From a virus, in IMG/VR virus record IMGVR_UViG_3300028809_000021, positions 1-48,669 of that record: 48,669 bases of DNA. One strand, given 5' to 3'. A model generated the notes under the pieces. It searched no databases. It was given only the letters and a program-made list of their open reading frames with translations, and had not been told where the DNA came from. The position numbers and the translations under genes are program-made. Below, piece after piece: positions 13,640-47,265 of the stretch (positions within the stretch are counted from its first letter, which is position 1; the number at the start of each line of letters is the position of its first letter).

Positions 13640-13642
13640 GCA

Positions 13643-14077: not shown

Positions 14078-14095
14078 TTTATTGCGTTTTAATTG

Positions 14096-18702: not shown

Positions 18703-18704
18703 GC

Positions 18705-19812: not shown

Positions 19813-20398
19813 TCAATATTTTTTGTGAGCGTTCAAAGTGTTCCGAATAGTCGGCCATTGTTCCCCATATCTTACTCATGCGGGGCCGCTGCCATGCTAC
19901 CATGGGCGTGATCACATAAGCGTTCAGGATAGATAGCTGACCAGACACCCAGTTATCATACATCTGCTCACTGAATCCCGGTTGATTCTCCAGGATAAAT
20001 GGCACAGCCTTGCGGCGGTACCCGATGCAGTGAGTAGTCCATGCTGCCCGGATGCGGAATATGTGTTCAGAAACCCTCTCCGGATTTTCATCCTGGATAT
20101 TGGCACCGAGGTAAACAATATCCCAGTCGGCTGGTAATTCAGCGAGTGCCTTCTGTAGGTGTGTGACATCCTTAAATTGGCAGTCATCCTCTAAGAACAG
20201 AAGACTATCACCATCAGATTCAAAGAACTTTATGAGTATTTGCCGGGTGGACCGGTTGAATGATTGATGCGGGCCAATGTCCGGTATAGCATCAAACTTC
20301 TGAGTGGATAATCCGACTCTGGCAAATTCTTGAACTGCTTTCTGCCATTCACAGGCATCAGCGGTTAAGCAAACTTTTTGATCAAAGAAATCCCACAT
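19787..20398 (-). CDS. GT25-like glycosyltransferase
   Basis: The 203-aa protein has LLFLEDDCQF (66-75), DWDIVYLGANI and TTHCIGYRRKAV in the order expected for GT25 enzymes (LPS beta-galactosyltransferases and collagen-type transferases). It is shorter than many of them. It is the first gene of the cassette and starts only a few bases after the terminator-like hairpin behind the capsid gene, with no clear ribosome site, so its expression probably depends on read-through from the capsid transcript. Confidence 0.75.
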   Translation of the reverse strand: MWDFFDQKVCLTADACEWQKAVQEFARVGLSTQKFDAIPDIGPHQSFNRSTRQILIKFFESDGDSLLFLEDDCQFKDVTHLQKALAELPADWDIVYLGANIQDENPERVSEHIFRIRAAWTTHCIGYRRKAVPFILENQPGFSEQMYDNWVSGQLSILNAYVITPMVAWQRPRMSKIWGTMADYSEHFERSQKILNEAPGNIY

Positions 20399-20402
20399 AC
20401 GA

Positions 20403-20432
20403 GAAAGAAAACCGGCGACCGGAGCCGCCGGT
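20403..20432 (-). terminator. Terminator behind the capsid gene
   Basis: On the minus strand a 7-bp stem (ACCGGCG / CGCCGGT) with an 8-base loop is followed by TTTCTTTC. It lies between the capsid stop and the GT25-like start. Its T-tract is imperfect, so partial termination is likely: strong capsid expression and weaker cassette expression. Confidence 0.7.
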
Positions 20433-20440
20433 ATATTTAA

Positions 20441-21718: not shown

Positions 21719-21720
21719 GG

Positions 21721-22647
21721 CTATGCCAGTTTAAGTTTTAAATAATGGAGTTGTTTGATGAACTCATTATTATCACTCTTGCTGACAGTCGGCGTCTGGG
21801 TGGATTGCTCCGGCGCAGAGGTGGCTGCGGTATCAAGTTCTGATAACAGTTGTTTCGTTTGTTCCAGTTCGTTAGAAATCCGTTGTATAGCGTCATCCGA
21901 TGCTTTCGTATTCCGGATGAAATTCTCCATGGCTTTTACTCCGGCGCGGAGATCTGTAGTCTCTTTCACGCCGTATTCCAGCCTGCGTTTCAACCACGCA
22001 ATGTTGTAGGACTGGTCACTGATTAACTCGTTAATGTAAGACCAGAGGTCCTGCCCCTCGGCAACCTGGTCATTCATAGTAATACACAGGCGCAATGCCT
22101 CCTGACGGTTATTGATCAGCTGACGGAGGAAATCTTTCTCATTCTCGTTCAGTTGCTTCAATACTTCAGGGGCAAAATCTTTAGTGACTGCAATAACGCC
22201 GGACTCTTGGTGAGCTCCCCAGTGAGTAAGCACGGACGTTTCTCTATGCGCCACTTCCTTATAGTCATATCCGCCCTTGGCCATTTTCGTGGCTCTAACC
22301 GGATTGAAGCCGTAAGAACTAGCGACGATAATTCCCTCATCCATTTGCTTTAGGGTATCATCTCCAAGGGTATGAGTGCCCAGATACACCTCAGTATAAG
22401 CATGATTATTATCATCCCATACTTTTAAAGGTTTCCCTGGTGCCAGTTCTTTTTTATGATTCAAAAAGAATCGCAAGTCGTCGAACTGCTCATTCCATGA
22501 CTTTGTGAACATTCCCTTATTTGCTCTATCACCGTCTCGGTCCAGGCTGTTGTAAGTAGCATGCGCGATTACCGCAGTCCTCTTGCTCATGTCGAGGTCC
22601 TTGATGGTAATTCCGTCCTTGCTGATCTTCATTGCCTTGGTTTTCAT
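21721..22647 (-). CDS. HK97-type prohead protease, with scaffold-like tail
   Basis: Residues 1-160 are a serine protease of the HK97 prohead (U35) type. The likely triad is His64 (FLNHKKE), Ser111 (VASSYGF, the S-x-G-F motif) and Glu137 (HRETSVLTHWGA). The C-terminal half (about 165-290) is helical and Gln/Glu-rich and may act as scaffold. It lies between the minor head and capsid genes, as usual. It would remove the capsid's coiled N-terminus during maturation. Confidence 0.85.
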   Translation of the reverse strand: MKTKAMKISKDGITIKDLDMSKRTAVIAHATYNSLDRDGDRANKGMFTKSWNEQFDDLRFFLNHKKELAPGKPLKVWDDNNHAYTEVYLGTHTLGDDTLKQMDEGIIVASSYGFNPVRATKMAKGGYDYKEVAHRETSVLTHWGAHQESGVIAVTKDFAPEVLKQLNENEKDFLRQLINNRQEALRLCITMNDQVAEGQDLWSYINELISDQSYNIAWLKRRLEYGVKETTDLRAGVKAMENFIRNTKASDDAIQRISNELEQTKQLLSELDTAATSAPEQSTQTPTVSKSDNNEFIKQLHYLKLKLA

Positions 22648-22657
22648 GTCACTTAGT

Positions 22658-23500
22658 TTATGCTGTTACGAGTTCTTGTTTCGGTATTAGTTTTCCGCTT
22701 TCATCCCTCAGCGGAACGAGGGCAGCCGTGCACCGGCAATTGATCACATTCTCTGCGCTGGCCGTTATATCTCCGGGGCCGGTCATCATCTCTACACGTA
22801 TGATCACGTTCTTTTTGTATACTGGTACCGCGAAGGATGCCATCTGGTCAACTACTGCTCCGTCTACATCCCTGTGACCATGGCGTGTACGGTGATCGTT
22901 CGCTGATATCCACTCTTTGCCGGTCTCATACTCGCTTTTATCATCCGCCAGCTTACGGCCGTATTCCGAAGCGAAAAGGTTTTCCGTCCTGGTGATCATT
23001 CTTGCTCTCCAGAGCAGAAGCTGCGGATCCTGAAGGGCATGCGCAATCTTATCGTATCCCCATCCGCCGCGCACCGCTTCTTCGAGTACTGAAAGAATTT
23101 GATCACGAGTTGTCTGTGACACTGGATAAACCGCCTTCTCCAGAAGGTGCTCACGGAAGTACGCTATGATATCTTCCGCCCACTCTTCGCTGAAGCCAAA
23201 CCGCGCAGCTTTCTGCCTGATGGAGCGAACCTGCTGGTTGATTTCCCGTAGTCCCTTATTTGCAAAGAACAATCCTGACGCTACGTGCAGGTCGGTGAGC
23301 ACTGGCTCTATCTTGCTATTGAACACCTGCATATCTATCTGTCCCTTGGCCATCTCTGGCCCCTTGGCTTTGATGATCGGCAAGGCTTGGTCTACCTGCC
23401 ATTCCAACGCTTTGAAGACCCTGCCGAGGTACTTCCGCTCGATCCGTTTGGACTGAGCGGCGAAAAGTCGGCTGTATTCTCTGCGTTGTTCCTGGTTCAT
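22658..23500 (-). CDS. SPP1 gp7 / Mu F-like minor head protein
   Basis: The C-terminal region has the family signature: EWISANDHRTRHGHRDVDG, then VEMMTGPGDITASAENVINC and CRC (about residues 190-265). These proteins enter the procapsid with the portal and assist head morphogenesis or DNA ejection. Downstream of the portal and two small genes, it is in the standard place. Confidence 0.9.
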   Translation of the reverse strand: MNQEQRREYSRLFAAQSKRIERKYLGRVFKALEWQVDQALPIIKAKGPEMAKGQIDMQVFNSKIEPVLTDLHVASGLFFANKGLREINQQVRSIRQKAARFGFSEEWAEDIIAYFREHLLEKAVYPVSQTTRDQILSVLEEAVRGGWGYDKIAHALQDPQLLLWRARMITRTENLFASEYGRKLADDKSEYETGKEWISANDHRTRHGHRDVDGAVVDQMASFAVPVYKKNVIIRVEMMTGPGDITASAENVINCRCTAALVPLRDESGKLIPKQELVTA

Positions 23501-23501
23501 G

Positions 23502-23687
23502 TTATCTTTCCCACTCCTTTATTTTCATTTCCTTTTGATCATCTGTAAGCCCGGCCATTTCCATCATTAACCGGTTGAACTCATAGTTCCGCTGGTTCTG
23601 TAGCTTCTCTTTGGCAGAACAGCACATGACCACCGGCGGCGGTACCCTGTTGTCTGCAATCTGTCTCACTCTTTCCTCTATAGTCAT
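23502..23687 (-). CDS. Hypothetical protein in head module, 61 aa
   Basis: A small charged helical protein with a Cys-Cys pair (VVMCCSAKEK). It overlaps the upstream 78-aa gene by four bases and precedes the minor head gene by one base, so it is probably cotranslated with head genes. No family is recognised. Confidence 0.65.
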   Translation of the reverse strand: MTIEERVRQIADNRVPPPVVMCCSAKEKLQNQRNYEFNRLMMEMAGLTDDQKEMKIKEWER

Positions 23688-23920
23688 AATGCGTCCAATT
23701 GTGATTGTAGTTTGTCTTTCTCCTGCTGCGCTTCTGCCATAATTAATTCTGCATATCGCAGGGCTCTTTCAGGGTTGGCACTCATGTACCGGACGAACCG
23801 GCTAGGAAGGGCATCGCGGAACTTCGTGGACCTGAACACCTCCATCTCAACCTCCATCTCTTTCACGTTATCGATCTGCCTGGTGAGATCGGCTGCTTGT
23901 TTGAATTGTTCCGTTGTCAT
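23684..23920 (-). CDS. Hypothetical helical protein in head module, 78 aa
   Basis: Mostly helical and highly charged (MEVEMEVFRSTKF, IMAEAQQEKDKLQSQLDAL), suggesting a coiled coil. It overlaps the portal gene by four bases and the 61-aa gene by four. A structural or assembly role near the portal is likely from position only. Confidence 0.65.
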   Translation of the reverse strand: MTTEQFKQAADLTRQIDNVKEMEVEMEVFRSTKFRDALPSRFVRYMSANPERALRYAELIMAEAQQEKDKLQSQLDAL

Positions 23921-25395
23921 CGCTTTATCCCCCTTTTATCGAGTTCCTGTATTTGCTCTTCATAGCCATCATCGGCCATCATCATACTCAGCGGCTGAAC
24001 ACCTGAAGGAACCCATACTTCGTTCATGGATGGCTCAGGGCTGGCTTCATACCCCATAGCAATGAGCTTTTGATTGGGCGTTACCCACCATGCTTTTGCG
24101 AGTGTTTCAACCAGCTTATTCACATCCTGCTGCATCTCGGGCAATTCAGAGAAGTCGCTTGCAATTCTCGCTTTGCCTTGTAGTTTATATGGTGCTGATA
24201 AACGAAGTGTGAGCAGCTCATCCAGTTCCTTTACCGGTGTCGCTATCGTATCATTTACCCAGTTCTTTTTCGCGTTCTCCAGGTTGGCCAGTGTAGCAGC
24301 AGAAGGAACAAAAAGCAATAGTGGCGTATCGAACAGCGCACACAGTTCCTCAGCGTTTTTAGCCTTTGCTTCAACCAGGTTCATATCCACGGAACTGAAA
24401 GCAAGATCGATGTACTCCCATTTGGACCCCATCAACAGCGCCACTGCCCCTTTTATATCGTTGTCATTGATCTTTGCGTTGACTACCCTGCGTATATCGC
24501 TCTCCTGTTCAGGAGTTGAATCATCCACGCTAAGGTTTTCAGAGAATAGTATTCCCTTGGCGCCATCGTTCTGAAACATCCGGACACTGCTCTTTGCGAT
24601 GTCCTTGCTTTCCTGAATGGTCTTATCCCCAGCTCTCATCCTGGTGAACCCCCGTAGATGAACACCGGTAGACGCGTCGAACTTCAGATTGATATCGCGC
24701 CAGTGGATGATGTCGCCCTTGCGGATTGGTATTTTCCTGCCGTTTACCTCCAGTTCGTACCCTGAAATACCGAACACATTTGTGGGATCTTTCAGAACAT
24801 TTACATTCTGAGTTGGTAACACATACATTTCCAGTACCGGCAACGCGTCGAGCTCCTTATTGGATCGGTTCACATATTCACCCGTAGCTGGGTCAAATCT
24901 TTGTGCAGCATCTCCACGGTTAAGCCAGATAAAACCTTCGCCGCATGCGAGGTAAAAGGCATACAACAATGTGAAGAACTGCGATGCGCCCTGGTATTCA
25001 TTGGGGCGGTCCAGTAATTTGTTTAGGTCACTTTCAAAGAGCATCTCAGGCTTTGCAGCCTTTGTATAGAATCGAACCTTTCCATCTTTTTCCTGTAAGA
25101 GCTTTTTCTCATCATACAGGTATCGGGGAATAGATCCGAACTTCTTTGCATTCTTGCTGATGATCGCATAGAGCCATGTGCTGGCACAGAATCCGTCATC
25201 AATAGCTTTGGCCTGGTCAAAATCAGGTATTACTTCTGTTCGTCCAATGATTCCTGTTACTCCTCCCATCTTACCACGGCTGAAAAGGTTATTCCATTTC
25301 CTTCGCACAGAATTGGCCACGCTGCTCATGAGCCCGCTGCCAGTGCTGTAGATGACCGTTCCGTCCTTCTTCTTGGTTAGTGTAACTTTGCTCAT
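23917..25395 (-). CDS. Portal protein
   Basis: The 492-aa protein fits the HK97-type portal family in size and content: a central LLYAFYLACGEGFIWLNRG segment (wing/stem), then IRKGDIIHWRDINLKFD and a helical clip region with LCALFDTPLLLFVPSAATLANLEN. It starts one base after terL and forms the dodecameric DNA channel at one capsid vertex. Confidence 0.9.
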   Translation of the reverse strand: MSKVTLTKKKDGTVIYSTGSGLMSSVANSVRRKWNNLFSRGKMGGVTGIIGRTEVIPDFDQAKAIDDGFCASTWLYAIISKNAKKFGSIPRYLYDEKKLLQEKDGKVRFYTKAAKPEMLFESDLNKLLDRPNEYQGASQFFTLLYAFYLACGEGFIWLNRGDAAQRFDPATGEYVNRSNKELDALPVLEMYVLPTQNVNVLKDPTNVFGISGYELEVNGRKIPIRKGDIIHWRDINLKFDASTGVHLRGFTRMRAGDKTIQESKDIAKSSVRMFQNDGAKGILFSENLSVDDSTPEQESDIRRVVNAKINDNDIKGAVALLMGSKWEYIDLAFSSVDMNLVEAKAKNAEELCALFDTPLLLFVPSAATLANLENAKKNWVNDTIATPVKELDELLTLRLSAPYKLQGKARIASDFSELPEMQQDVNKLVETLAKAWWVTPNQKLIAMGYEASPEPSMNEVWVPSGVQPLSMMMADDGYEEQIQELDKRGIKR

Positions 25396-26859
25396 TTATA
25401 GTGAAATAGCGCCTGCTTTTCTTATTGGTTTGAGATCAAATTTTTCCCTCATCATAATAGTGTCCCAGAAATCGGGAGAGCGGCCAAGTGCTTCCTTTAT
25501 ATCATCTTTCTTCATTAGGCACTTCTTCCCATCACCATCAACCTCTTTCTGCTTAACCTGCTCCATTTCTTCCGTGATCTGTTCTTTTTGCTCCGGCGTG
25601 GCACCCTCAACGTATAGTCCTGACCTATTAATTCTGTCTGCCATTCTGAAAGAGCATTGAGACTTCAAGTTGTCGTAGTTCTCTGGCTTCGGATTTCCTT
25701 TATCATCAAGGTCAGGCTTTATAGGGTTGATCATCGGGCGACTGTTATTCACGAACCCCTCGCACTTCACGATATCAACCACCCCACCTCCTACACCGTC
25801 TTCATCTACCAGTGTATGGCTGTTCGGTATCCCATACTGATGCTGGAGTCCTTGTATTTTTTCTGCTGTCTCAGTTATCGATAAGCCTTTGTATTGATAT
25901 AGCTTCACCCTGAAGCCTTCCCATACGCCAATAACCGTTGTATCCTTTCCGAACCGGGCAACGTCGCATGTGATATATCGCTTTCCCTTCAGGTGCTCAA
26001 AGTCGTTATTGAACACATCCAGGATCTTATCGTAGACGATCAATACAAGTGGATCGTCATCGTATTCCCAGTTGCCATGAAGCAACCTCTGCTTCTGGGG
26101 ACCTTCTGGCATCCTTTTCAATAACTGCACATAAGCAGCAGGGGCATGCGGATTATCTGAAACGAATGCCTGAATGAATGCCTTATACGACTCCAACCTA
26201 CCATCCTTTTTTGCCTTGTAAAATTCAGAATACGGCCATCCCTTAACTGGGTTGGACGCATACAAGGCCTTAGGTTTTAGTCCAGGTGTTTCTTGCTTAC
26301 ATTTTACGCACTCCCATTGAATCGGTTTTTCATCGGCATCATACAGTAGCGGCTTAGCTTCGGTTAGCCTCGCTCCGCAAGTGTGGCAAAAGGATAAATA
26401 ACGAAGGCGGCTTTTTAAAGTCTCCTTTGCTTTTACGCTTACCTGGCCACACTCATCAATGAACACATCGGTAATTTCAAGCGATCCCAGTTCATCAAAA
26501 TCTGGATCCGAAGGACTGTCTGCTAAATCCCGTAACAGGATCACGCTACTATTTTTGAACAGAATACAGTTAGGATTCTCTTTGTCGTGTGAACCTGTTA
26601 GCTCAAAATGTTTCCCACGCTTCAATCCCTGCTTGCCTGCTATCTCAAAGAACGTTTTTAGTGTAGTATCCTTCAGGGTCTTGAAAATCGCCCTGCCTAT
26701 AAATCCCCGAGAACCGGGATATTTAAACCTTCTTTTCAATTGGAAGTAACTTCCAAGTGCCGACTTCGCGCCGCCGGCTGCCCCTCCATACATGACCTCT
26801 TCTGTAATATCATCTTCGAGTAAATCGAGAGCAGTGGTTTGCTTGTAGGTCAGCTTCAT
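25396..26859 (-). CDS. terL: Terminase large subunit
   Basis: A 487-aa packaging motor. The ATPase half has Walker A GGAAGGAKS (25-33) and Walker B VFIDE (132-136). The nuclease half has Asp299 (YITCDVARFGKD) and Asp352/Asp354 (HTLVDEDGVGGG). An unusual insert with two Cys pairs (C158/C161 and C184/C187) looks like a zinc ribbon between the domains. It overlaps the small subunit gene by four bases. Confidence 0.93.
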   Translation of the reverse strand: MKLTYKQTTALDLLEDDITEEVMYGGAAGGAKSALGSYFQLKRRFKYPGSRGFIGRAIFKTLKDTTLKTFFEIAGKQGLKRGKHFELTGSHDKENPNCILFKNSSVILLRDLADSPSDPDFDELGSLEITDVFIDECGQVSVKAKETLKSRLRYLSFCHTCGARLTEAKPLLYDADEKPIQWECVKCKQETPGLKPKALYASNPVKGWPYSEFYKAKKDGRLESYKAFIQAFVSDNPHAPAAYVQLLKRMPEGPQKQRLLHGNWEYDDDPLVLIVYDKILDVFNNDFEHLKGKRYITCDVARFGKDTTVIGVWEGFRVKLYQYKGLSITETAEKIQGLQHQYGIPNSHTLVDEDGVGGGVVDIVKCEGFVNNSRPMINPIKPDLDDKGNPKPENYDNLKSQCSFRMADRINRSGLYVEGATPEQKEQITEEMEQVKQKEVDGDGKKCLMKKDDIKEALGRSPDFWDTIMMREKFDLKPIRKAGAISL

Positions 26860-38468: not shown

Positions 38469-38768
38469 TTAAGTAAAAATCAATTGCCTGTTTTCACCTT
38501 TAACGATGGTTGTCTCGAATGGAAAATTCTCCTTCTTAACTTGCTGGATCATATGCTGTAGGGATTTTGATCCGGGGAATGTTACATACTTCTGCCCTTC
38601 ATATTCAATCTGCATCTGCACGTAGGTGGTTCCTGGCTTTTTGGTTGAATTCTCAATCTTGAAGTCATGCACTATTATCTTTCGATTCAACAACCAGTCT
38701 ACGCTTCTTTTGTCGCCGATGAATCCTTTTTGCTCCGGGACTATGCCCATTTCCTTGAATGTTTTCAT
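38469..38768 (-). CDS. Candidate DGR accessory protein, 99 aa
   Basis: A small beta-rich protein (TYVQMQIEYEGQKYVTFPGS, FETTIVKGENRQLIF), reminiscent of an OB-like single-strand-binding barrel. I recall similar proteins beside reverse transcriptases in Bacteroidota phages. Its start overlaps the 3' end of the RT gene by 104 bases. No avd-like gene is present, so this is the best candidate for an accessory factor in cDNA handling. No catalytic residues are seen. Confidence 0.7.
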   Translation of the reverse strand: MKTFKEMGIVPEQKGFIGDKRSVDWLLNRKIIVHDFKIENSTKKPGTTYVQMQIEYEGQKYVTFPGSKSLQHMIQQVKKENFPFETTIVKGENRQLIFT

Positions 38769-39714
38769 ACAGTAATTTTTTCAGTAAATGCTTTCCGTTA
38801 CAGTGTTTCACCCACCCTTGGTAAGAGGCAACAGATTGCTTGTTCGGGTTCTTTCGGAACTTCCGAGCCATGTTCTGTTTGATACTTTTCCGCAGGCGAA
38901 TGTGAGTGTGATAAAATACGTAGCCGAGAAAATCAATCCCTCTGGAGGCCACAGGGAAAACCTGATGATTCTCTTTTACGTGCAGTTTTAATTCATTGCT
39001 CAGGTAACGTTTAATGTCGGTCAGCAACTGATGTAAATACTGTTTGTCGCTATTCAGTATTACAATGTCGTCAGCATATCGGAAGTAGTATTTTACTTTC
39101 TTCACTTCCTTTAACCAGTGATCGAAATAGGTCAAATAAAAGTTCGCGAAATACTGACTGAGATAGTTTCCAATGGGCAGGCCTGGTGCACTGTCAATGA
39201 TCTCTTCAAATAACCACAAGAGATCCTGATCTTTGAATTTTCTGTGCAGCAAGGTTTTCAATATGTCGTGATCTACACTTGGATAGAACTTCTTAATGTC
39301 GAGCTTGAGACAGTACACGGTCTCTTCCTTGTCCCGCAGAGCTCCTTTCAGATTAATTAACGCCTTGTGAATTCCGCGTCCCTTGATGCAGCTGTAAGTG
39401 TCTGCCGTAAAGCTCGCAACAAAGTGCCGCTCGACTACATTCATCACGGCGTGGTGAACGATCCTGTCAGGGTAATAAGGCAAACGAAACACTTCCCGCT
39501 CTTTAGGCTCAAACACTTTGAAAGTTGAATAGGCTGAGGTCCGGAAAGTCTTATTGAGAAGTGATTGCTGAAGCACGAGAAGATTCGCATCCTTGTTTTG
39601 ATCGTGAACCAGAATTCCGTACTGACCTTTCTTTCCCTTGCGAGCAATTGCATCAGCGGCCTGCAGGTTTTCCAGGTCAACAATTTTTCCGAATAAGTCT
39701 CCTACTCTTTTCAT
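38665..39714 (-). CDS. DGR reverse transcriptase
   Basis: The 349-aa protein has the polymerase motifs YCLKLDIKKFYPSVD (catalytic Asp139) and FRYADDIVIL with YADD at 213-216. Motif 4 reads GLPIGNYLSQYFANFYL (178-194), the IG-x-x-x-SQ form typical of diversity-generating retroelements rather than the QG-x-x-SP of group II introns. There is no maturase or endonuclease domain. The template repeat lies about 110 bases upstream of its start. It would reverse-transcribe the template RNA with errors at adenines. Confidence 0.93.
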   Translation of the reverse strand: MKRVGDLFGKIVDLENLQAADAIARKGKKGQYGILVHDQNKDANLLVLQQSLLNKTFRTSAYSTFKVFEPKEREVFRLPYYPDRIVHHAVMNVVERHFVASFTADTYSCIKGRGIHKALINLKGALRDKEETVYCLKLDIKKFYPSVDHDILKTLLHRKFKDQDLLWLFEEIIDSAPGLPIGNYLSQYFANFYLTYFDHWLKEVKKVKYYFRYADDIVILNSDKQYLHQLLTDIKRYLSNELKLHVKENHQVFPVASRGIDFLGYVFYHTHIRLRKSIKQNMARKFRKNPNKQSVASYQGWVKHCNGKHLLKKLLYENIQGNGHSPGAKRIHRRQKKRRLVVESKDNSA

Positions 39715-39821
39715 AGCCTTTGCTGTTACGGGGAATCTTCGTTTTACCTACCAATACCCCAAACGTGAGGAAGTAATTTTTTGCCAAGAGGCAAGGCCTG
39801 TACCACTAAAATCTTCAGCAT

Positions 39822-39882
39822 AGGTGGGCACTGACATTCGAATTCGTGTTATCGTAGTTCGCATCGTTCAGCCGGAAGCTGG
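39822..39882 (-). repeat. DGR template repeat (TR)
   Basis: This non-coding stretch of 61 bases lies between the target gene and the RT gene. On the minus strand it carries five AAY codons and other adenines. It matches three variable repeats at every non-adenine position (44 of 44), while adenines differ in all three copies. It would be transcribed and copied into mutated cDNA. Confidence 0.95.
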
Positions 39883-39918
39883 AACCCTGTCAGCCCTTGC
39901 GGTACACAACCCTTACTT

Positions 39919-40797
39919 TTATTGTTTCATTACATTGCGATAGTCATCGATATACTCCTCAGCCACCTCTCTAACTTCTTTTTCATCGCGGAGGGAAAGG
40001 CGGGCACCGACAAGCGAATCCGTGTCATCGCAGAGCGCATCGTCCAGCCGGAAGCCGGAGGGGTTATTTTCGTCCTTCTCCATATCCCACCATGGGTACC
40101 ACTTTTCTTCATCCCTATTCTGATAGTCGAATTTGTGGTTACCTCTTTTCGCTGCTGTTCCTACCAGTAACCTGATGAATGAACGGACAGGCTTCTGAAG
40201 ATCAGAGGGCATGCGTGACAAATCAGGAATGATTGTAAGAGGATCATAACCCAGAATTTTGCAATCGCGTGTGAAAGGATCATTTTCCACATTGGCTGAA
40301 GTTTCTCCTGTTGTTTCCACTGCAGTATTGAGGGTAAAATAAGCCTCATAGATGGACTTGAACTTGTTGGCAGCATCCAGCGCATGCTCCTTCGATTTGA
40401 AAACAAGGCGGGCACCGACAGCCGAAGCCGAGTAATCGTAGTACGCATCGTACAGCCGGAAGCCGGGTTCATTCAGGTAGAACCACACATACCACTTCGC
40501 TTCGCTGTTATTGAAGTCAGGAACCCATCCCTGGTTATACGCCTTACAGATCAACTTCATCTGACGGTAAGCGATTTCATCCGGTTCTAGTCCTGCATCC
40601 TCGCAAGCTTCTAAGAAGTCTCCTTTTGTTGTTTCATTGAGTTCACAGACATCTGCGAACGTCTCAATGCGATCCATGATATTTTCCGGCAGAAAGCTCT
40701 TTTTGCCGAGCAAATTCTCCAGTACTGCCTTTACATCAGAGCAGCCGGCATTATATGCCTTCAGTGCATTTTCTTTGGTGATGTTGATTGTACTCAT
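39919..40797 (-). CDS. DGR target protein with two variable domains
   Basis: The 292-aa protein has two related modules. Each has an aromatic W-Y-x-W block and then the variable loop: GFRLYDAYYDYSASAVGARL (112-131) and GFRLDDALCDDTDSLVGARL (248-267). The loops coincide exactly with variable repeats 2 and 1. The module recalls short DGR-variable domains I know from Bacteroidota phages, (S)GFx...VG(S/A)RL. No signal peptide or membrane segment is seen. It ends 37 bases before the template repeat. Two independent diversified loops on one chain is unusual. Confidence 0.9.
   Translation of the reverse strand: MSTINITKENALKAYNAGCSDVKAVLENLLGKKSFLPENIMDRIETFADVCELNETTKGDFLEACEDAGLEPDEIAYRQMKLICKAYNQGWVPDFNNSEAKWYVWFYLNEPGFRLYDAYYDYSASAVGARLVFKSKEHALDAANKFKSIYEAYFTLNTAVETTGETSANVENDPFTRDCKILGYDPLTIIPDLSRMPSDLQKPVRSFIRLLVGTAAKRGNHKFDYQNRDEEKWYPWWDMEKDENNPSGFRLDDALCDDTDSLVGARLSLRDEKEVREVAEEYIDDYRNVMKQ
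39998..40059 (-). repeat. DGR variable repeat 1 (VR1)
   Basis: Matches the template repeat with 11 differences in 61 positions, all at template adenines (coding strand). It encodes the loop of the C-terminal domain of the target protein. The ends (TCCGGCTTCCGG and GTCGGTGCCCGC) are shared by all three copies and differ from the template by adenines only. Confidence 0.93.
40406..40467 (-). repeat. DGR variable repeat 2 (VR2)
   Basis: Matches the template repeat with 11 differences in 61 positions, all at template adenines. It encodes the loop of the N-terminal domain. The pattern of replaced bases differs from VR1 and VR3, so the two sites in one gene have been diversified independently. Confidence 0.93.
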
Positions 40798-40807
40798 TTA
40801 TGAAGTT

Positions 40808-41230
40808 TTAATACTTGACACGTTTGTAATTCGGCTCATGCTTCGACAACTTGAGCCCTTTCTGCCTGGCTTCTGCATCCTTGTTCTCGATCTGTGTATT
40901 GCAGTGAGGGCAGCTGGGTAACCAGAAGTGCTGATCTGTGAGATTCTTCCCGGTTCTTCCTTTGAGATGGTGAACGACCGTTGCTTGTTTTGTACAGCCG
41001 TTATCGATCTGAAGTTTGCACCGCTGGTTTTCAGGCTTAGCCAGAAATTCCGTGTAATCCTTCTTCAGCGGCTTCATCGTTTCCTTCATCTTCTCGGACC
41101 GCTTTGCGATCGGCTTCGCCTTCTCCTTGGCCTCCATTTCCTTTACACTCACCTTAGCGTATATCCGGTGGCCGATGCAGTAACCGTTCTTCTGGGGGTG
41201 GCTTTTGCAGCCAGGGAATTCGCAGGTCAT
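40808..41230 (-). CDS. HNH-like nuclease / recombination protein
   Basis: The 140-aa protein has an N-terminal Cys-rich part (CEFPGCKSHPQKNGYCIGH), a highly charged linker and a C-terminal HNH-type region: VVHHLKGRTGKNL, then CPHCNTQIENKDAEA (about 86-122). The HH pair, the Asp/Asn site and the CxxC fit an HNH or NinG-like nuclease. It lies between the DGR and the recombination genes. Confidence 0.7.
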   Translation of the reverse strand: MTCEFPGCKSHPQKNGYCIGHRIYAKVSVKEMEAKEKAKPIAKRSEKMKETMKPLKKDYTEFLAKPENQRCKLQIDNGCTKQATVVHHLKGRTGKNLTDQHFWLPSCPHCNTQIENKDAEARQKGLKLSKHEPNYKRVKY

Positions 41231-41239
41231 AACATGTAT

Positions 41240-43321
41240 TTAATCTTTATAATAAGCCTGAAATCTTACGACATCGGCATATTCTGGTGACTTGATCAGG
41301 CCATCCCCCGCTCCTCCCAGTCCTTCGGCGCCGACCTCATCCAGAACAACCTGAGAATCGGTTGCCTTGGGCACACGAAAGCATATTTGCACGGGGAAGT
41401 TGACCTTGGCGTCACCTGTAATTACCTTAGTTGAGGCCCGTTGCGTTGCGGCTACAATTCGAAACCCGCATGCCCTTCCCTTTTGCGCTAGTACGCGGAG
41501 ATTCTCTTCAAGCGTTTTGAGCGTATCAACGTGTTCCTTTTTGAGCTTAGGCATACCATTGGCAAAAGCTCCGACTACCACATTCTCATAAACTTTCAGT
41601 TCTTTGGCCGATTTCGAGTTAGCAACCGCGTCAGCGAACTCGTCGAATACAATTAGTGTTTTCCTTATTTTGCCTTCTTTTACAAGAATCTCCATGTACT
41701 CTACCATCTCCCTCATTTTATCCTCGATAGCAGAAATCTCATTGACCACCTGAACTGCAGAGTTTGAATACCGCAAGAACTCATACTTCGGATCCAGGAT
41801 AACGATATCCTGAATTCCACCCTGTAATGCGTACTCTATAATCGAACGAACACAAACGGACTTACCGCTTCCTGTGGCGCCGCAAATAATTGCATGAGGC
41901 GTGGAATGATTATCTAAGTCCCAAACAATCACATTTCCGAAATTGTCTCTTCCGATAGGTATCTTATGGCCCTGCAGGTCAGCTGGATTGAAAAGAAGAT
42001 TCTTATCTCTTTTTTTGGCGCATTCGATTGCGAGGTATGACTTACCCTGGTGCACAACCATCGACTGGGAAAAGCGGACATTCGCAACGTCAAGGCCATT
42101 AGCTATATCAAGCCCAAACTTTTGTATGGATGCTACTTTGACTCCCGCCGACACCTCCAACAGGTAACTGTTGCTCGAATAACCTTCAAATGTGTGAGCA
42201 CACTTCACAGGTACATTGAAACTGCGAAGCACATGCTCAATCTTTTCTTCTGCCGTCATATTCTTTGTGCTTAAATCGTACTGAATGAACTTGTCTGCGT
42301 TTTCTCGGAAACGCTTAATAACAGTTGGTGAAACCACTTCCATTGAAGAGTCGCGGACCTTTTTAAGACGCTTTGCTACCATCTCTTTTTTGGCTTGATC
42401 TACATTGAAGTCTTCTACCTCGCAGATCATGGTTCGTACCCAAAAATCATAGAGCTCGGCCTTGTCAACATAATTATCAGCGTCATTGATCATGTATACA
42501 TAATCAGGATTACTGGTCGCTTCGATCAACCTTTTGAGTGGTTCATATAGCAGGGCCTCGTAAAGCTTTCGGGTGTTGGGGGTAATCTCGACCGGGAATT
42601 TGACCAGTTGTGCAGATTTATCTCTGTTTTGACTGTATTTATTTTCAATGAACCATACCTCATCAGGCTGAATACCTGTGGCTGCTTCGTATCCTAATAC
42701 ATAAGTGATTGCCTGCACACCGATTGAATAGGCCACTTCGTCTTCTCCGGTGAACGATTTCTTTAGTTTATGATCCACAATAGCAATTCGCTGCCTTTTA
42801 GTTCGAACCACCATATCAATCTGGATGTTGCACGGAAGCGGAATATCAACACCGTTCACTGTGAGAAATTCGTGAAGGCGTAGTTCAACAGCTAATATTT
42901 CATCGATCTCATCTTCATAAATTGATCGCTCTGAATAAAAATTACGAAGGGCGGCCGTTGTGATTTTGGTGGCTTCTAATTGACATGCTTCAATTGTTGG
43001 AGTAGTTTTCTGCAACTTCCATCGATTGGCTGGCACATCTTCAATATGAGCAAACGCGGATTTTTCCAATTCCACCAAATCCAGGGTTACCCCCTCTTTC
43101 TTTTGAGCGAAATAATATTCAAGTGCCTTATGGTACGCCTGCCCCGCTACGGTAGTCGCCCCATTCCGGGAATACAAGCCATACACGTATTGCATTTCAA
43201 ACGCTTTCTCATTTCGCGCGAAAGTTGTCACTTTGGAATAGCTCCAACTATTGATAAGGAAATTGCTGAAGAGTTCCTCCTGTTGTTCGGGGGACAAGCT
43301 CGCATAGAATTGCATACTCAT
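41240..43321 (-). CDS. PD-(D/E)XK nuclease fused to FtsK-type DNA translocase
   Basis: The N-terminal domain (residues about 30-260) is RecB/Cas4-like: SKVTTFARNEKAF (29-41), GQAYHKALE with His64, QIDM with Asp169 and VDHK with Asp183/Lys185. After a linker comes an FtsK-like region: beta domain (about 370-475), Walker A GATGSGKS (481-488), Walker B LIVFDEFADA and RACGFRIVAATQR. The gamma domain is absent. A translocating nuclease of this design is unusual; it could process DNA ends in recombination. Confidence 0.85.
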   Translation of the reverse strand: MSMQFYASLSPEQQEELFSNFLINSWSYSKVTTFARNEKAFEMQYVYGLYSRNGATTVAGQAYHKALEYYFAQKKEGVTLDLVELEKSAFAHIEDVPANRWKLQKTTPTIEACQLEATKITTAALRNFYSERSIYEDEIDEILAVELRLHEFLTVNGVDIPLPCNIQIDMVVRTKRQRIAIVDHKLKKSFTGEDEVAYSIGVQAITYVLGYEAATGIQPDEVWFIENKYSQNRDKSAQLVKFPVEITPNTRKLYEALLYEPLKRLIEATSNPDYVYMINDADNYVDKAELYDFWVRTMICEVEDFNVDQAKKEMVAKRLKKVRDSSMEVVSPTVIKRFRENADKFIQYDLSTKNMTAEEKIEHVLRSFNVPVKCAHTFEGYSSNSYLLEVSAGVKVASIQKFGLDIANGLDVANVRFSQSMVVHQGKSYLAIECAKKRDKNLLFNPADLQGHKIPIGRDNFGNVIVWDLDNHSTPHAIICGATGSGKSVCVRSIIEYALQGGIQDIVILDPKYEFLRYSNSAVQVVNEISAIEDKMREMVEYMEILVKEGKIRKTLIVFDEFADAVANSKSAKELKVYENVVVGAFANGMPKLKKEHVDTLKTLEENLRVLAQKGRACGFRIVAATQRASTKVITGDAKVNFPVQICFRVPKATDSQVVLDEVGAEGLGGAGDGLIKSPEYADVVRFQAYYKD

Positions 43322-44259
43322 GGCAGATTAAGTGTTAGTCCGCTACCATTGTTTCGTATGCCGTCTTGTGGAGATTCTTCAGCCTGCTTCTTCTGTAGCT
43401 CGTATTCTTCAGCCGCTTCTTTGCAAATGTTCTTGTGGGCTTCCAACTTCTTCTTCAATGCCGGCGTCAACTTGTTCCAGATGGCAATCACACCAGCAAG
43501 TCCGAATTCGGTAGCCATCAGCATTTCTGATTTGATCGCAGTAATCGCAGGATCCTCGCCATCCCCTTCATTGAACCATTGCATGATCATTCGGCCAGTT
43601 TCCTCATTCAGGTAATTGTTGCCTGTGCCAAAGAAGGGCTTCAAAAATGCCGGCATTTTCAGCCACTGCTGTTTTTTGCCTTCATCCAACATTAACATGG
43701 AAGCCGTCATTTCGAACATGAAGTTCTTTTCGCAGATCGGCTGAATACCCAGCGATACTGGTTTGTCCGGGTTTTTAAAATCAGTCTTCTCCCTGGCACG
43801 CAGACACACAATAACAGGTATTGGGCAATACAGAAGTGTATTCATGAATTGCTTATGCTCCCTCTTGGCCCCCACCCAGTTCGCCATCTTTTTACCGGCC
43901 AGCAAAGCAGCCTGAGCAATATCATCACAACCACCTTCACCTTCCCATTCATGTGAACCACTATCAATCACAAGCGCCTGCACACCAGCCGCAATAAATT
44001 CCTTGATCGCTTCACTGTAGCGTTTCGGGCTGAAGGGCGCGTACAGGTCGCCGATTTGAAATTGATCATCAAGAATATCATGGTAAAGAGATCCGCGCTT
44101 GTTTTCAGTGTCAAGTAGGCCGACTTGAGAGGCTTTCTTTACCATTCCCCTCGCCATTTTCAAGGCTGTATACGTCTTGCCTGATCCAGACGTTCCCGCC
44201 AGTGCGATGATCGGTTTGCCGCCACCTCTTGAAACAGGTCTTATGTTGAGTATGCTCAT
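43318..44259 (-). CDS. Sak4-like RecA-fold ATPase
   Basis: The N-terminal half is a RecA/AAA ATPase: Walker A AGTSGSGKT (about 21-29) and Walker B ALVIDSGSHEWEG (about 92-104). This is the AAA_24 / Sak4 pattern of phage recombination ATPases. The C-terminal part is helical. It overlaps the nuclease-FtsK gene by four bases, so they form a recombination unit. Confidence 0.8.
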   Translation of the reverse strand: MSILNIRPVSRGGGKPIIALAGTSGSGKTYTALKMARGMVKKASQVGLLDTENKRGSLYHDILDDQFQIGDLYAPFSPKRYSEAIKEFIAAGVQALVIDSGSHEWEGEGGCDDIAQAALLAGKKMANWVGAKREHKQFMNTLLYCPIPVIVCLRAREKTDFKNPDKPVSLGIQPICEKNFMFEMTASMLMLDEGKKQQWLKMPAFLKPFFGTGNNYLNEETGRMIMQWFNEGDGEDPAITAIKSEMLMATEFGLAGVIAIWNKLTPALKKKLEAHKNICKEAAEEYELQKKQAEESPQDGIRNNGSGLTLNLP

Positions 44260-44265
44260 ATTAAT

Positions 44266-44508
44266 TTATTCTTCGATTAGCGATGCTTCAAGCTGTTCAC
44301 GATATACTTCCGACCAGTTGGTATCATTGATCATTCTTTCGATCTCTACTGAGAAGTACTTCACTATCACGTCAGTGATATCTACCATTGATCCGGAACC
44401 GATTGCATATACTGCATACATCTCGCCCACAGAATTATTTTTTATATCGTAGTTCATTTGAACTTCGATTTCACTCTGGGCCGCATGGAATGTTTTACTG
44501 AGTATCAT
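44266..44508 (-). CDS. Hypothetical protein, 80 aa
   Basis: A small alpha/beta protein with MILSKTFHAAQSEIEVQMNY and an acidic helical end. It lies between the Sak4-like gene (six bases away) and an 89-aa gene (one base away), so it belongs to the recombination transcript. Function unknown. Confidence 0.65.
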   Translation of the reverse strand: MILSKTFHAAQSEIEVQMNYDIKNNSVGEMYAVYAIGSGSMVDITDVIVKYFSVEIERMINDTNWSEVYREQLEASLIEE

Positions 44509-44509
44509 A

Positions 44510-44779
44510 CTATCGGGTTAAGAATGAATTTTGTTTAGCTCTGGTCTGATCATATTGAAATAAGAATTCAGCCTCAGTGATCCTGTTGTAGTCATTCAGT
44601 CTGACCAGTTGCCTATCTCTGTAGTCGTCATCTGCGGCATACCCTGTGATAGCCCTATCGCTCACCACCATCAGCTCTCCGAAATGATTGAGGTAATAGA
44701 AGTAATCGCAGTGTGCATAATATCCTGGTTCAACTGACACCTGCACTTCTTCTTCCCTCCTTACGGTAACTGTAATCAT
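44510..44779 (-). CDS. Hypothetical protein, 89 aa
   Basis: A Tyr/Asp-rich beta protein (EPGYYAHCDYFYYLNHFGEL). It begins the recombination transcript. The terminator of the upstream gene lies 13 bases before its start. Function unknown. Confidence 0.6.
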   Translation of the reverse strand: MITVTVRREEEVQVSVEPGYYAHCDYFYYLNHFGELMVVSDRAITGYAADDDYRDRQLVRLNDYNRITEAEFLFQYDQTRAKQNSFLTR

Positions 44780-44792
44780 AACTTTGCTTTTT

Positions 44793-44832
44793 TGAAAAGA
44801 AGCCCCGGCCTCACACTCTCCACTGCCGGGGC
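44793..44832 (-). terminator. Strong terminator
   Basis: An 8-bp stem (GCCCCGGC / GCCGGGGC) with a 15-base loop is followed by TTCTTTTC on the minus strand. It separates the short acidic gene from the recombination genes, so read-through or another promoter is needed downstream. Confidence 0.75.
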
Positions 44833-44840
44833 GAAATTGT

Positions 44841-44969
44841 TTAGTCTACCAGAGCTCCTGCACCTTCACTGGTTTCTTCCTGCACCAGTTCTGTTGCACC
44901 GGTTTCCTCTGTTACTGTTTCGTTTGTCTGGTCTTGCGCCGCTTGTGCGCCTGGATCGATTGCTCGCAT
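44841..44969 (-). CDS. Small acidic protein, 42 aa
   Basis: The ATG at 44969 gives MRAIDPGAQAAQDQTNETVT and a Glu/Thr/Gln-rich tail. The longer frame begins inside the terminator-like end of the upstream RNA, so the short form is preferred. Its stop lies eight bases before a terminator. Possibly disordered; no function known. Confidence 0.55.
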   Translation of the reverse strand: MRAIDPGAQAAQDQTNETVTEETGATELVQEETSEGAGALVD

Positions 44970-45004
44970 GATCGTTGTGTTTATAGTGATAAATGAATGA
45001 GCAG

Positions 45005-45026
45005 AAAAATGCTCGTCTTTCCGAGC
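45005..45026 (-). terminator. Terminator-like hairpin at the end of the structured RNA
   Basis: GCTCG-GAAAGA-CGAGC is followed by ATTTTT on the minus strand. The stem is short (5 bp), so it is a weak to moderate terminator. It forms the likely 3' end of the structured RNA region. Confidence 0.55.
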
Positions 45027-45247
45027 CGTCAGGCTGAACTTCCGCATCAGACCCTCACTGGATTTACAGTCCGGCGTTGGGGTTTCGACCGCTTTGCTAT
45101 CCGAGCTCCCTTGCTCGGTTCCCGAATGGCGTCCCGTCCTGTCGGTATCGCTATTTATCTTTCCAGGATGTCAAGCGTCTGTCCTTGTGCAATCCAGATT
45201 TTGAGTCTGGGCTACTCCTTCAGCCGTTTCCGTATTTGGGTGCCTTG

Positions 45248-45320
45248 TAGCGATGGCGGGATTCGAACCCGCGACTTCTTGATCATGAGTCAAGCGAGCT
45301 AGCCTCTGCTCTACATCGCA
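45248..45320 (-). tRNA. tRNA-Met (CAT)
   Basis: All arms fold. The acceptor stem has six pairs plus a T-T mismatch at 1-72. The D stem is GAGC / GCTC. The anticodon stem CTTGA / TCAAG has loop CTCATGA (anticodon CAT). The T arm GCGGG-TTCGAAT-CCCGC is perfect. Length 73 without CCA. The mismatch at 1-72 recalls initiator tRNA, but tRNA-Ile2 (CAT modified) is also possible. It is embedded in the structured RNA region. Confidence 0.85.
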
Positions 45321-45829
45321 GTGTGCGTGTATTTCCACGCTGTCACCGCAGCCTTGTTTTTCCTCCCACCATCCGTCAGGTCGCAACCCGCTTATAGGCC
45401 GTGTGGAGTACATCGGTGAGCTTTCGGGCAACACCACGATTTTTATTCTATTGCCAGAGGATGGCAGGCTCCGAAGCCTGCATACGTTTTATTTCACACG
45501 TCTTATATCGCTCCGACTTACCGGTTGCTAGCGTCTCCTTCCGCCACATCCTCAGCAATAGAAATACATTTATGTGCTGCCAATGCTGCTACCCTGCGGA
45601 AACCGGTAAGTCTGTTGGCACCGCTTTCGCTTCCTTTCGGAAAAGCCGGACAGTCCAGCACATAAATATTCTTATGATCAATCAAAGAACTTTCAAAGAA
45701 CCGGAGCGGAGGCACCGCCCCGGGCTACCAAGCAATAACCATCAACCATTTCCTATAATGAAAAACCAACTTTACCAGCCTGCGACTCCAATCACCAGGC
45801 AGAAATATGTTGCAAAAAGAACTGTCTTT

Positions 45830-45856
45830 AAAAACCGGGGGCAAAATCTCCCCCGG
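45830..45856 (-). terminator. Terminator upstream of the structured RNA
   Basis: A 7-bp stem (CCGGGGG / CCCCCGG) with loop AGATTTTG is followed by five T residues on the minus strand. It ends the micro-gene operon, making the structured RNA a separate unit. Confidence 0.85.
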
Positions 45857-46005
45857 TAACCCTTATCCTATTTCAACCCCGACCCAAGTCGGTTCCCCGC
45901 ACAATGCCCAGGGAAAAGCAGCTACGACACAGAGCCTATTTTCCAATAATCATTAAAATATGCAGCCTCGCATGTGATCATGCCTCACTGCTTGCCAGTA
46001 AAATC

Positions 46006-46092
46006 TTACAGTGATCGCATTCCCCTATCACCTCTCCTATTCACACTCCACAGGATGCCCATCACAATTAATATCGTGAGCCAGAGGATCAT
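46006..46092 (-). CDS. Single-span membrane micro-protein, 28 aa
   Basis: Starts at an ATGA overlap with the upstream 41-aa frame and encodes MILWLTILIVMGILWSVNRR: a membrane segment followed by a basic tail. It is the last gene of a chain of overlapping micro-genes ending at the terminator. The tight coupling supports reality; function unknown. Confidence 0.5.
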   Translation of the reverse strand: MILWLTILIVMGILWSVNRRGDRGMRSL

Positions 46093-46214
46093 TCGCTGAT
46101 CGCACTTTCGTGTTCATCAAGTTCGATTTCACTATCACTACTTTCCGCAAACCAAACAGCTGCAAGGAATGCGCCTATGGAAATACCGATGATAAGTGTC
46201 AATACGATAATCAT
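46089..46214 (-). CDS. Single-span membrane micro-protein with acidic tail, 41 aa
   Basis: Residues 1-21 (MIIVLTLIIGISIGAFLAAV and W) form a membrane helix and the rest is acidic (SSDSEIELDEHESAISE). It overlaps both neighbours by four bases. No family known. Confidence 0.55.
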   Translation of the reverse strand: MIIVLTLIIGISIGAFLAAVWFAESSDSEIELDEHESAISE

Positions 46215-46318
46215 TTGCTTAAAATTTCGTTGTTATCTTTATGTACTAACCATAATGTATAGCCGATAAAAAACAAACACACGATAGCTGAAATTCCGAA
46301 AATGAAATTCAAGTTCAT
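46211..46318 (-). CDS. Single-span membrane micro-protein, 35 aa
   Basis: MNLNFIFGISAIVCLFFIGY is a membrane helix; the tail is polar (LVHKDNNEILSK). Overlaps the next gene by four bases. Function unknown. Confidence 0.55.
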   Translation of the reverse strand: MNLNFIFGISAIVCLFFIGYTLWLVHKDNNEILSK

Positions 46319-46330
46319 AAGGGGTACGGA

Positions 46331-46495
46331 TTAATTCAATCTTGTTGCGGTAATCAAATACGCCAGTAATGTGCGGTGCCGCTGGCGTAGGGTAAACACT
46401 GGTCTTTCAGTCGGCGATACTTTTGCGAAGTCGTTCACCAGCTTATAGAGGCCGTGGTATGGCACATTCGGGAATATCGGCTGTATCAGTGTCAT
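46331..46495 (-). CDS. Small basic protein, 54 aa
   Basis: A soluble basic protein (TLRQRHRTLLAYLITATRL) coupled by ATGA overlap to the upstream HTH-like gene. The downstream micro-gene begins 13 bases after its stop. No family recognised. Confidence 0.55.
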   Translation of the reverse strand: MTLIQPIFPNVPYHGLYKLVNDFAKVSPTERPVFTLRQRHRTLLAYLITATRLN

Positions 46496-46758
46496 GCGGT
46501 TTGTTTTTTAAGAAACTGTTCAGGGATGGACTCAAGAACATACTTGATTCTTCGGCTGGGCTCTTGCCTAAACTCGATTAACTTTCCTTCCCTCGCCTGC
46601 CTGAGCTCTTCTTTATTCCACCCGGTCAATCTAATGATCCACTCCGCGTTAACCCAAGTCTTCTTTTTTCTTTCCATTACCAAAGTGCGGACAGTAGAAT
46701 TCAATCGATCGACCTGGTTAGTCAGTTGTTCCAATTTTCTGCTGATATCCGCCTCCAT
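46492..46758 (-). CDS. Excisionase/HTH-like DNA-binding protein, 88 aa
   Basis: An N-terminal coiled segment (1-32) is followed by a winged-helix type region WVNAEWIIRLTGWNKEELRQ with a basic wing (SRRIKYVLESIPEQFLKK). The fold resembles the small excisionase-like DNA-binding proteins of Bacteroidota mobile elements. A regulator of the micro-gene operon or an excision factor is possible, though no integrase is seen. Confidence 0.65.
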   Translation of the reverse strand: MEADISRKLEQLTNQVDRLNSTVRTLVMERKKKTWVNAEWIIRLTGWNKEELRQAREGKLIEFRQEPSRRIKYVLESIPEQFLKKQTA

Positions 46759-46762
46759 GATC

Positions 46763-46858
46763 TTAGGGTTTTTGAGCTACATAATTAATCAGGAATACAA
46801 TGACCACAAATCCAATCGCTATCGCGTGCACTTGGCCGGTGGTGAGTTCTTTTTTCAT
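46763..46858 (-). CDS. Single-span membrane micro-protein, 31 aa
   Basis: Encodes MKKELTTGQVHAIAIGFVVI followed by VFLINYVAQKP, a basic start and one membrane segment. It starts 2 bases after the stop of the DGR target gene and ends 4 bases before the HTH-like gene. Confidence 0.55.
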   Translation of the reverse strand: MKKELTTGQVHAIAIGFVVIVFLINYVAQKP

Positions 46859-46860
46859 GG

Positions 46861-47265
46861 CTACCTTATATTGAGGTAAACGATCTGATACAGGTCAGGG
46901 TACTTGCTCGCAAGCTCCTTACACTTCTCCCTACTTGTCGAAGTAAGGCGGGCACCGACATCCGAAGCCGCGCTATCGTAGTGCGCACCGTCCAGCCGGA
47001 AGCCGGAGGGATCACTTTCACCTGGTACGTACCCATGATCAGCCACAAACCAAGGTTCATACTTGAGTACTTCATGGTTCGTGATATCATTTATTACTCC
47101 ATCGTTTTCAGCCTCAGTGATCACTCCCAGCATGTATACACCGGTATTCCAGAGCGCGAGATCCGGGCGCATGAAAGAGTTGTCGGGAAGTTGATTGGGG
47201 AGGCCCAGCTTTTCGCAAGCCTGCTCAAATCCTTTCTTGGTCTGTTCTGAGATTTCGATTAGCAT
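46861..47265 (-). CDS. Second DGR target protein with one variable domain
   Basis: A 134-aa protein with a helical N-terminal half (QTKKGFEQACEKLGLPNQ) and the variable loop GFRLDGAHYDSAASDVGARL at 88-107, equal to variable repeat 3. The domain is of the same type as in the first target protein, with an aromatic block before the loop (YEPWFVADHG). It is cytoplasmic by sequence and lies 6.1 kb from the first target gene, near the regulatory end of the genome. Confidence 0.88.
   Translation of the reverse strand: MLIEISEQTKKGFEQACEKLGLPNQLPDNSFMRPDLALWNTGVYMLGVITEAENDGVINDITNHEVLKYEPWFVADHGYVPGESDPSGFRLDGAHYDSAASDVGARLTSTSREKCKELASKYPDLYQIVYLNIR
46929..46948 (-). promoter_or_regulatory. Hairpin at the VR3 3' edge
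   Basis: On the coding strand CCTTACTT-CGAC-AAGTAGGG forms an 8-bp stem (one T-G pair) with a 4-base loop directly at the 3' end of VR3. Known DGRs use a small hairpin at this place for target recognition. VR2 has only CCTT / AAGG with a 12-base loop, and VR1 none that is clear. Confidence 0.55.
46946..47007 (-). repeat. DGR variable repeat 3 (VR3)
   Basis: Matches the template repeat with 11 differences in 61 positions, all at template adenines. It lies 7,124 bases from the template. Its loop differs from VR1 and VR2 at most variable sites. Confidence 0.93.

Follow-up and report, generated by a model that had tools for sequence, protein, structure and literature searches.

A diversity-generating retroelement of Bacteroidota phages that probably diversifies small early proteins and has a candidate in-frame homing site

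Almost every account of phage diversity-generating retroelements (DGRs) treats them as switches of tail-fibre tropism that act on C-type lectins; a survey found the variable repeat (VR) regions of DGRs to be systematically C-type lectins and the viral targets to be mostly tail proteins (PMC8144416). In the system of Bordetella phage BPP-1 (Brt, Avd, Mtd; Rfam Phage_DGR), which uses Avd, the only VR is C-terminal in a tail C-type lectin. In BPP-1 the initiation of mutagenic homing (IMH) site at the VR end combines a GC-only block with a part that differs from the template repeat (TR) and sets the direction (PMC3240598). Two departures from the single tail target have been described. In Quimbyvirus a second target of the DGR lies close to methyltransferases and an RNA ligase and was called a C-type lectin (Benler et al. 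2021, PMC8008677), and in two-target DGRs with tentaclins one TR feeds two different genes, with one VR away from the 3' end (PMC10743442). Here we analyze a DGR in a viral stretch of 48,669 nucleotides (IMG/VR record IMGVR_UViG_3300028809_000021, positions 1 to 48,669; hereafter the window). Like the tentaclin systems it feeds two genes from one TR, and like BPP-1 it has a TR beside a homologous reverse transcriptase (RT), adenine-specific differences, a GC-rich element at the 3' end of the VR and a structured RNA between TR and RT. Unlike BPP-1, it has three internal VRs in small, apparently early proteins, and the targets of the tentaclin systems differ in that both are C-type-lectin receptor-binding proteins. 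We consider it probable that the DGR of the window belongs to a lineage of complete DGRs in Bacteroidota phages that is dedicated to small early proteins, most likely intracellular binders.

The locus is near certainly a complete DGR. The initial annotation had recognized one from a YADD RT, a TR and three VRs in two genes, and this is borne out by the RT motifs, the relatives of the RT and a recount of the repeats. The RT (38665..39714, minus strand, 349 aa) carries the YADD catalytic motif and the sequence IGNYLSQ, which fits the (I/V/L)GxxxSQ consensus of motif 4 in DGR RTs (PMC3521204). It matches RVT_1 with an E-value of 1.4e-18 and phrog_1423 with 1e-119. In a tree of 88 rows, built without retrons, the window RT joins BPP-1 Brt and other phage DGR RTs instead of grouping with group II intron RTs, from which it is split with a Shimodaira–Hasegawa-like approximate likelihood ratio (SH-aLRT) support of 100. 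The nearest solved relative by sequence is 8ub7 (E 9e-42), which its sequence leads us to take for BPP-1 Brt; group II and other RTs match at 1e-16 or weaker. Most RTs with small targets fall into one group of 71 rows, for which support is moderate because the SH-aLRT is 84, and which also takes in one long-branch tail-type RT. The closest annotated RTs, at about 50-58% identity, are those of crAss-like phages (cr52_1, cr60_1, LMMB); those inspected adjoin tail proteins, and the target in these phages differs from those of the window in being a late-region tail protein with a C-terminal VR.

On the minus strand, which is the coding strand, the order is target gene B (47265-46861), replication-type genes, an HNH gene, target gene A (40797-39919), the TR, a 107-nt spacer, the RT and an open reading frame (ORF) of 99 aa. 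The TR occupies 39822..39882, and its match to VR1 extends to 39820-39883. VR1 (39998..40059) lies within domain 2 of target A at residues 247-268, VR2 (40406..40467) within domain 1 of target A at residues 111-131, and VR3 (46946..47007) within target B at residues 87-107, all on the minus strand. For the recount, TR 39822-39882 was compared on the coding strand with 39998-40058, 40406-40466 and 46946-47006. Each VR differs from the TR at 11 of 61 aligned positions, and all 33 differences fall at the 17 TR adenines, with none at the 44 other positions; 15 of the 17 adenines are altered in at least one copy. These counts reproduce exactly those given earlier for this DNA. The probability that 11 differences would all hit adenines by chance is 3e-8 per copy. 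No further repeat copy is present in the window, in which the only four matches are the TR and the three VRs and none would be expected by chance. Twelve of the 33 differences are common to all VRs, because the same A-to-G change is found in all three at four TR adenines (aligned positions 3, 39, 51 and 58). Positions 51 and 58 are fixed TR/VR differences across nearly the entire family and are better read as the signature of a homing site than as random mutation.

This signature lies in a short GC-rich motif at the end of each repeat. The candidate IMH is GTCGGTGCCCGCCT in VR1 (39998..40011), VR2 (40406..40419) and VR3 (46946..46959), and the corresponding candidate IMH* of the TR (39822..39835) is GTCAGTGCCCACCT, with two A where all VRs have G; all four are on the minus strand. 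Among 97 TR/VR pairs, each VR ends in a GTCGGYnCCCGCCT-like motif, and the TR usually reads GTCAGYnCCCACCT. At the two diagnostic positions the VR has G at both in 97/97 pairs, and the TR has A in 89% and 86%. The arginine codon within the motif is CGC in 91 of 97 cases, compared to 87 of 405 elsewhere in the same genes (P 7e-42), and the GC content of the motif is 72% versus 43%. By analogy with BPP-1, we infer that the motif is an IMH embedded in coding sequence and translated as VG(S/A)RL; the TR would be marked as a non-recipient by the two A of its copy. Such an in-frame homing site would bear on how DGR sites inside genes are recognized, and would count against the idea that VRs must be C-terminal in order to have non-coding cis elements. 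BPP-1 has a hairpin after its VR, a feature that is common in DGRs but that membership does not require. In the window none was seen, and the longest stems just downstream of the VRs barely exceed those of shuffled sequences (mean 4.18 versus 3.88).

All three VRs of the window lie inside small domains (120-165 aa) of a phrog_11581-type family to which no function is assigned. Target gene A (39919..40797, minus strand, 292 aa) consists of two such domains in tandem, at residues about 1-165 and 166-292. They are fused in one ORF here and in locus L076, whereas most relatives have separate tandem genes. Target gene B (46861..47265, minus strand, 134 aa) holds a single domain (phrog_11581, E 4e-4). 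Of 86 family members, 79 match phrog_11581, and the family has no meaningful sequence match in Pfam, NCBIfam or the PDB. The AlphaFold model of domain 1 of target A (predicted local distance difference test, pLDDT, 91.3; predicted template modelling score, pTM, 0.83) is mainly helical with one β-hairpin, and the VR forms the second hairpin strand and the following loop. With this model Foldseek has no significant PDB hit (best E 1.6) and returns only uncharacterized phage proteins from BFVD. None of the PDB matches listed to E 10 is a C-type lectin, and family searches give no consistent tail or fibre match and no DNA-binding motif. The VRs are internal, with about 25-35 residues following the VR in each domain, and 107 of 109 targets are without a hydrophobic 19-mer. 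The products are predicted to be small soluble proteins without a membrane segment, in which a constant helical scaffold carries one hypervariable hairpin-loop.

Genes of the window with structural matches are confined to 7498..26859 (7.5-26.9 kb), where no repeat copy is found. They are, all on the minus strand, the major tail protein (7498-8841), a weakly matching tape measure (10865-12928), the major head protein (20441-21718), the portal (23917-25395) and the terminase (25396-26859). The VR-bearing targets lie in the early/replication region, 13-30 kb away from the tail genes. Family matches on the minus strand identify their neighbours as an HNH endonuclease-like protein (40808..41230), a fusion of a PD-(D/E)XK nuclease with an FtsK-SpoIIIE ATPase (41240..43321) and an AAA_24/phrog_1366 ATPase with a weak Sak4-like match (43318..44259). 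Counted from a divergent gene pair at 47.5-48.5 kb, target B is the third gene; the pair gives no useful Pfam match and is likely to encode the regulators of a presumed lysogeny switch. In relatives, the upstream neighbours include RecT, exonuclease VIII, SbcC-like proteins, helicase and MuB, and the downstream ones methyltransferases, helicases, terminase, portal and neck protein. Apart from the neck/connector genes downstream, the most frequent neighbour families of relatives include no tail family such as fibre or baseplate. Several Mu-like phages have transposase and MuB 5-8 kb upstream on the same strand, with packaging and neck genes downstream on the opposite strand. A PADLOC scan of the upstream neighbours gives scattered methyltransferase and nuclease matches and no consistent defence system. 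Gene order and sequence together make it likely that this DGR lineage is dedicated to small non-tail early proteins.

The lineage is large. An RT search of viral contigs yielded 80 loci at 58-78% identity, most of which contain TR/VR pairs according to a scripted scan. A typical locus has its TR about 100 nt ahead of the RT and carries two VRs, which lie in a tandem pair of genes (about 150 and 125 aa); ten records have three VRs, target genes with VRs are mostly 120-165 aa, and additional distant targets occur in L063, L067, L068 and L103. In 111 TR/VR pairs from 61 non-redundant loci, 68% of TR adenines differ, compared to less than 0.4% of C, G or T; this figure is descriptive because the pairs were selected for adenine bias, and the unbiased test is the comparison of near-identical contigs. 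Six contigs (L022, L025-L028 and L031) share at least 99% identity across stretches of up to 5.9 kb. Of the 37 columns that vary within their three VRs, 35 sit opposite TR adenines (24% expected, P 1e-19), so that substitutions are not spread evenly over the template bases. The TR and flanks are almost invariant, with one variable TR column and a handful outside, several of those at contig ends. In these relatives the VRs, which lie in coding genes, vary in nature while the TR stays nearly constant. Because the six contigs differ almost only at template adenines inside VRs, this comparison shows adenine-specific homing to be active in nature in close relatives, as distinct from the window phage itself.

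The target family was also sought outside viral contigs. A scan of 84,980 genomes found 77 loci, almost all in Bacteroidota or Ignavibacteria, of which 42 have this RT and 45 have TR/VR pairs. The cassette is also present in sequenced isolates of Flavobacterium, Chryseobacterium and Dyadobacter, and no target homologue was found on plasmids. Judged from these matches, the arrangement recurs in scores of Bacteroidota viruses and prophages. A direct scan of viral contigs with the 292-aa target A gave no matches, as the patterns taken from it were overly specific; searches with the RT, and with a tighter alignment of the targets, succeeded. Three loci (L097, L099 and L123) have a TR and two VRs with adenine-only differences and no RT adjoining the TR, nor was one found elsewhere in the genome sequences covered for L099 and L123; these are candidate orphan templates whose RT has been lost or acts in trans. 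Some other target-family loci also have no nearby RT, and in L114 the RT lies just past the end of the stretch examined. Between the closely related loci L140 and L143 (about 10302-10343), a target-family gene has 11 differences within 42 bp and none in the surrounding ~240 bp. No RT homologue is found within 10 kb of this segment, and a remote or unrecognized DGR is a candidate for driving its hypervariation.

Two further components accompany the RT. The TR-RT spacer (39715..39821, minus strand) is a structured RNA, similar to Rfam RT-17 at 39719-39798. Its match to RT-17 (RF03020) is full length and scores 33.2 bits (E 0.0034), below the gathering threshold of 40.4 bits, which is passed by 3 of 17 relatives tested (L014, L032 and L132). 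Conservation of the spacer extends across 48 loci, and 11 of its 12 predicted pairs show compensatory changes. The spacers of BPP-1 and hankyphage-type DGRs belong to other Rfam families, Phage_DGR and RT-3. The location of RT-3 at the TR-RT spacer of hankyphage-type DGRs, and of RT-17 at that of the window lineage, suggests that both small RNA families are spacers of DGR template RNAs. The second component is a candidate accessory protein of 99 aa (38469..38768, minus strand), which overlaps the 3' end of the RT gene and directly follows the RT in 52 loci. Its AlphaFold model (pLDDT 92.8) is all-β with a strand order like that of the oligonucleotide/oligosaccharide-binding (OB) fold, and Foldseek gives weak OB-type hits, none with E below 0.05. 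The model would fit a nucleic-acid-binding helper. The protein has no detectable relation to Avd, which is a four-helix protein, or to the ORFs that follow the RT in tail-type DGRs, and no Avd-like ORF was seen in the cassette, the remainder of the window not having been scanned exhaustively for Avd. The window differs from BPP-1 in its spacer RNA and, as far as the cassette shows, in having a candidate OB-like accessory protein in place of Avd.

Taken together, these components suggest the following mechanism. The RNA of TR and RT-17-like spacer would be bound by the RT, probably with the help of the OB-like protein of 99 aa, in the place that Avd has in other DGRs. The RT would copy the TR, placing random bases opposite adenine, and the cDNA would replace VR sequence upstream of the GC-rich IMH (GTCGGYnCCCGCCT) within the coding sequence. 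What would protect the TR is that its copy of the motif has A at two positions that are G in every VR. The cDNA would stop before the IMH, which would leave the VG(S/A)RL peptide constant and about 10 codons between SGF and VGARL variable. The products are most likely intracellular binders, made early in infection or from a prophage, whose partner, a host defence or another phage protein, varies between hosts.

A non-structural target of a phage DGR is not a new idea, and the precedents are the cultured Bacteroides phage BT-TP2 and LoVEphage. One and the same TR of BT-TP2 serves both a tail-type protein and a homologue of our target family, and LoVEphage has an equivalent two-target plan. The second VR of BT-TP2, at L008:122-238 (PQ571279.1), is unannotated and lies in a small early protein that crosses the record start; the two ends of this record apparently overlap by about 140 nt. 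It has 13 adenine differences and no other over 117 bp. BT-TP2 and the hankyphage-type DGRs (Rfam RT-3) thus resemble the window in that BT-TP2 has a VR in a target-family homologue beside its repressor region. They differ in their main target, which is a large tail-type protein, in a spacer RNA of another kind, in an RT that is only distantly related and in lacking an OB-like accessory protein. The gene content of LoVEphage matches the description of Quimbyvirus in PMC8008677, from which we regard LoVEphage as Quimbyvirus-like, and its second DGR target is a distant homologue of the window targets. As in the window, one TR of these phages also serves a non-structural protein whose gene has replication and defence-type genes around it. 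Unlike the window, where all three VRs are in the family and no tail gene is targeted, they have a single copy as second target beside the tail fibre, and the RT is split, as described for Quimbyvirus. What is added here is a lineage that targets only this family, together with its scaffold, homing motif, RNA and accessory protein; the target cluster may already have been listed elsewhere, perhaps as one of the 24 target clusters of PMC8144416.

Several points weigh against a DGR lineage dedicated to small early intracellular binders. The labels early and non-virion derive from gene order, and the genes of some tail or virion proteins lie outside the tail cluster. In BT-TP2 and LoVEphage, variation in a tail protein and in a member of the target family comes from the same TR, so the VR segment may be a module derived from a C-type lectin; the second target of Quimbyvirus was called a C-type lectin (Benler 2021, PMC8008677). 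The target protein could still act outside the cell, and homing may need other sequences, since no hairpin was seen downstream of the VRs. A counter-defence role is drawn from the gene neighbourhood. We put forward tentatively, as the most attractive of several readings, the more specific proposal that phages of Bacteroidota run this DGR to make a changing repertoire of small early binders that would capture host defence or rival phage proteins with surfaces that vary among hosts.

Two other roles for the targets were weighed. They might be early regulators, such as antirepressor-like or superinfection-immunity factors, that are kept changing so that related prophages miss each other. The place of target B, as third gene from the two presumed regulators that diverge near 47.8 kb, would suit such a role, as would the BT-TP2 homologue directly after a helix-turn-helix gene beside the repressor and the many relatives in bacterial genomes. 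However, target A is 6 kb distant, close to the RT, the targets show no motif for binding DNA, and a repertoire would account better than a single recognition code for two to three different VRs in each phage, which leaves this role unlikely. Alternatively, the targets might be virion-associated receptor-binding or decoration proteins encoded out of place, and the DGR an ordinary tropism switch. Tail proteins make up most viral DGR targets (PMC8144416), one TR serves both a tail protein and the target family in BT-TP2 and LoVEphage, and terminase and portal genes come after the cassette in some loci. Against this, the targets are proteins of 120-165 aa, with no tail or fibre match that is consistent, they stand among replication and recombination genes on the early strand, and the tail target, where present, is a separate additional gene; we consider a tropism switch improbable. 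That the repeats are relics of a decaying or inactive DGR, for which the three loci that keep TR and VRs without a nearby RT might speak, is very improbable, as the RT, TR, VRs, spacer RNA and accessory protein of the window are all intact, its VRs have accumulated no non-adenine differences and relatives are active.

If the targets are indeed small early binders, hypermutation by phage DGRs would also serve conflict inside the cell, as adaptive counter-immunity and not as tropism switching outside it. The lineage is large and naturally active. All its known targets are small early proteins that are probably intracellular and whose fold has no match in the PDB, and it is a potential natural source of intracellular binders on a compact scaffold. 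Their function is testable, as BT-TP2 and LoVEphage-type phages are available.

Some other features of the window are recorded here. The fusion at 41240-43321 is one protein of 693 aa, in which an N-terminal PD-(D/E)XK nuclease domain is joined to an FtsK/SpoIIIE-type ATPase. Directly after the DGR accessory gene, 38051-38458 encodes a 135-aa protein with a DnaA C-terminal DNA-binding domain. A DUF1376-like gene contains a 43-nt direct repeat, 84% identical, at 37538-37580 and 37799-37841. A tRNA-Met (CAT) gene is found at 45247-45320 within the phage early region, and a glycosyltransferase-like gene at 16010-17095 lies amid the structural genes.

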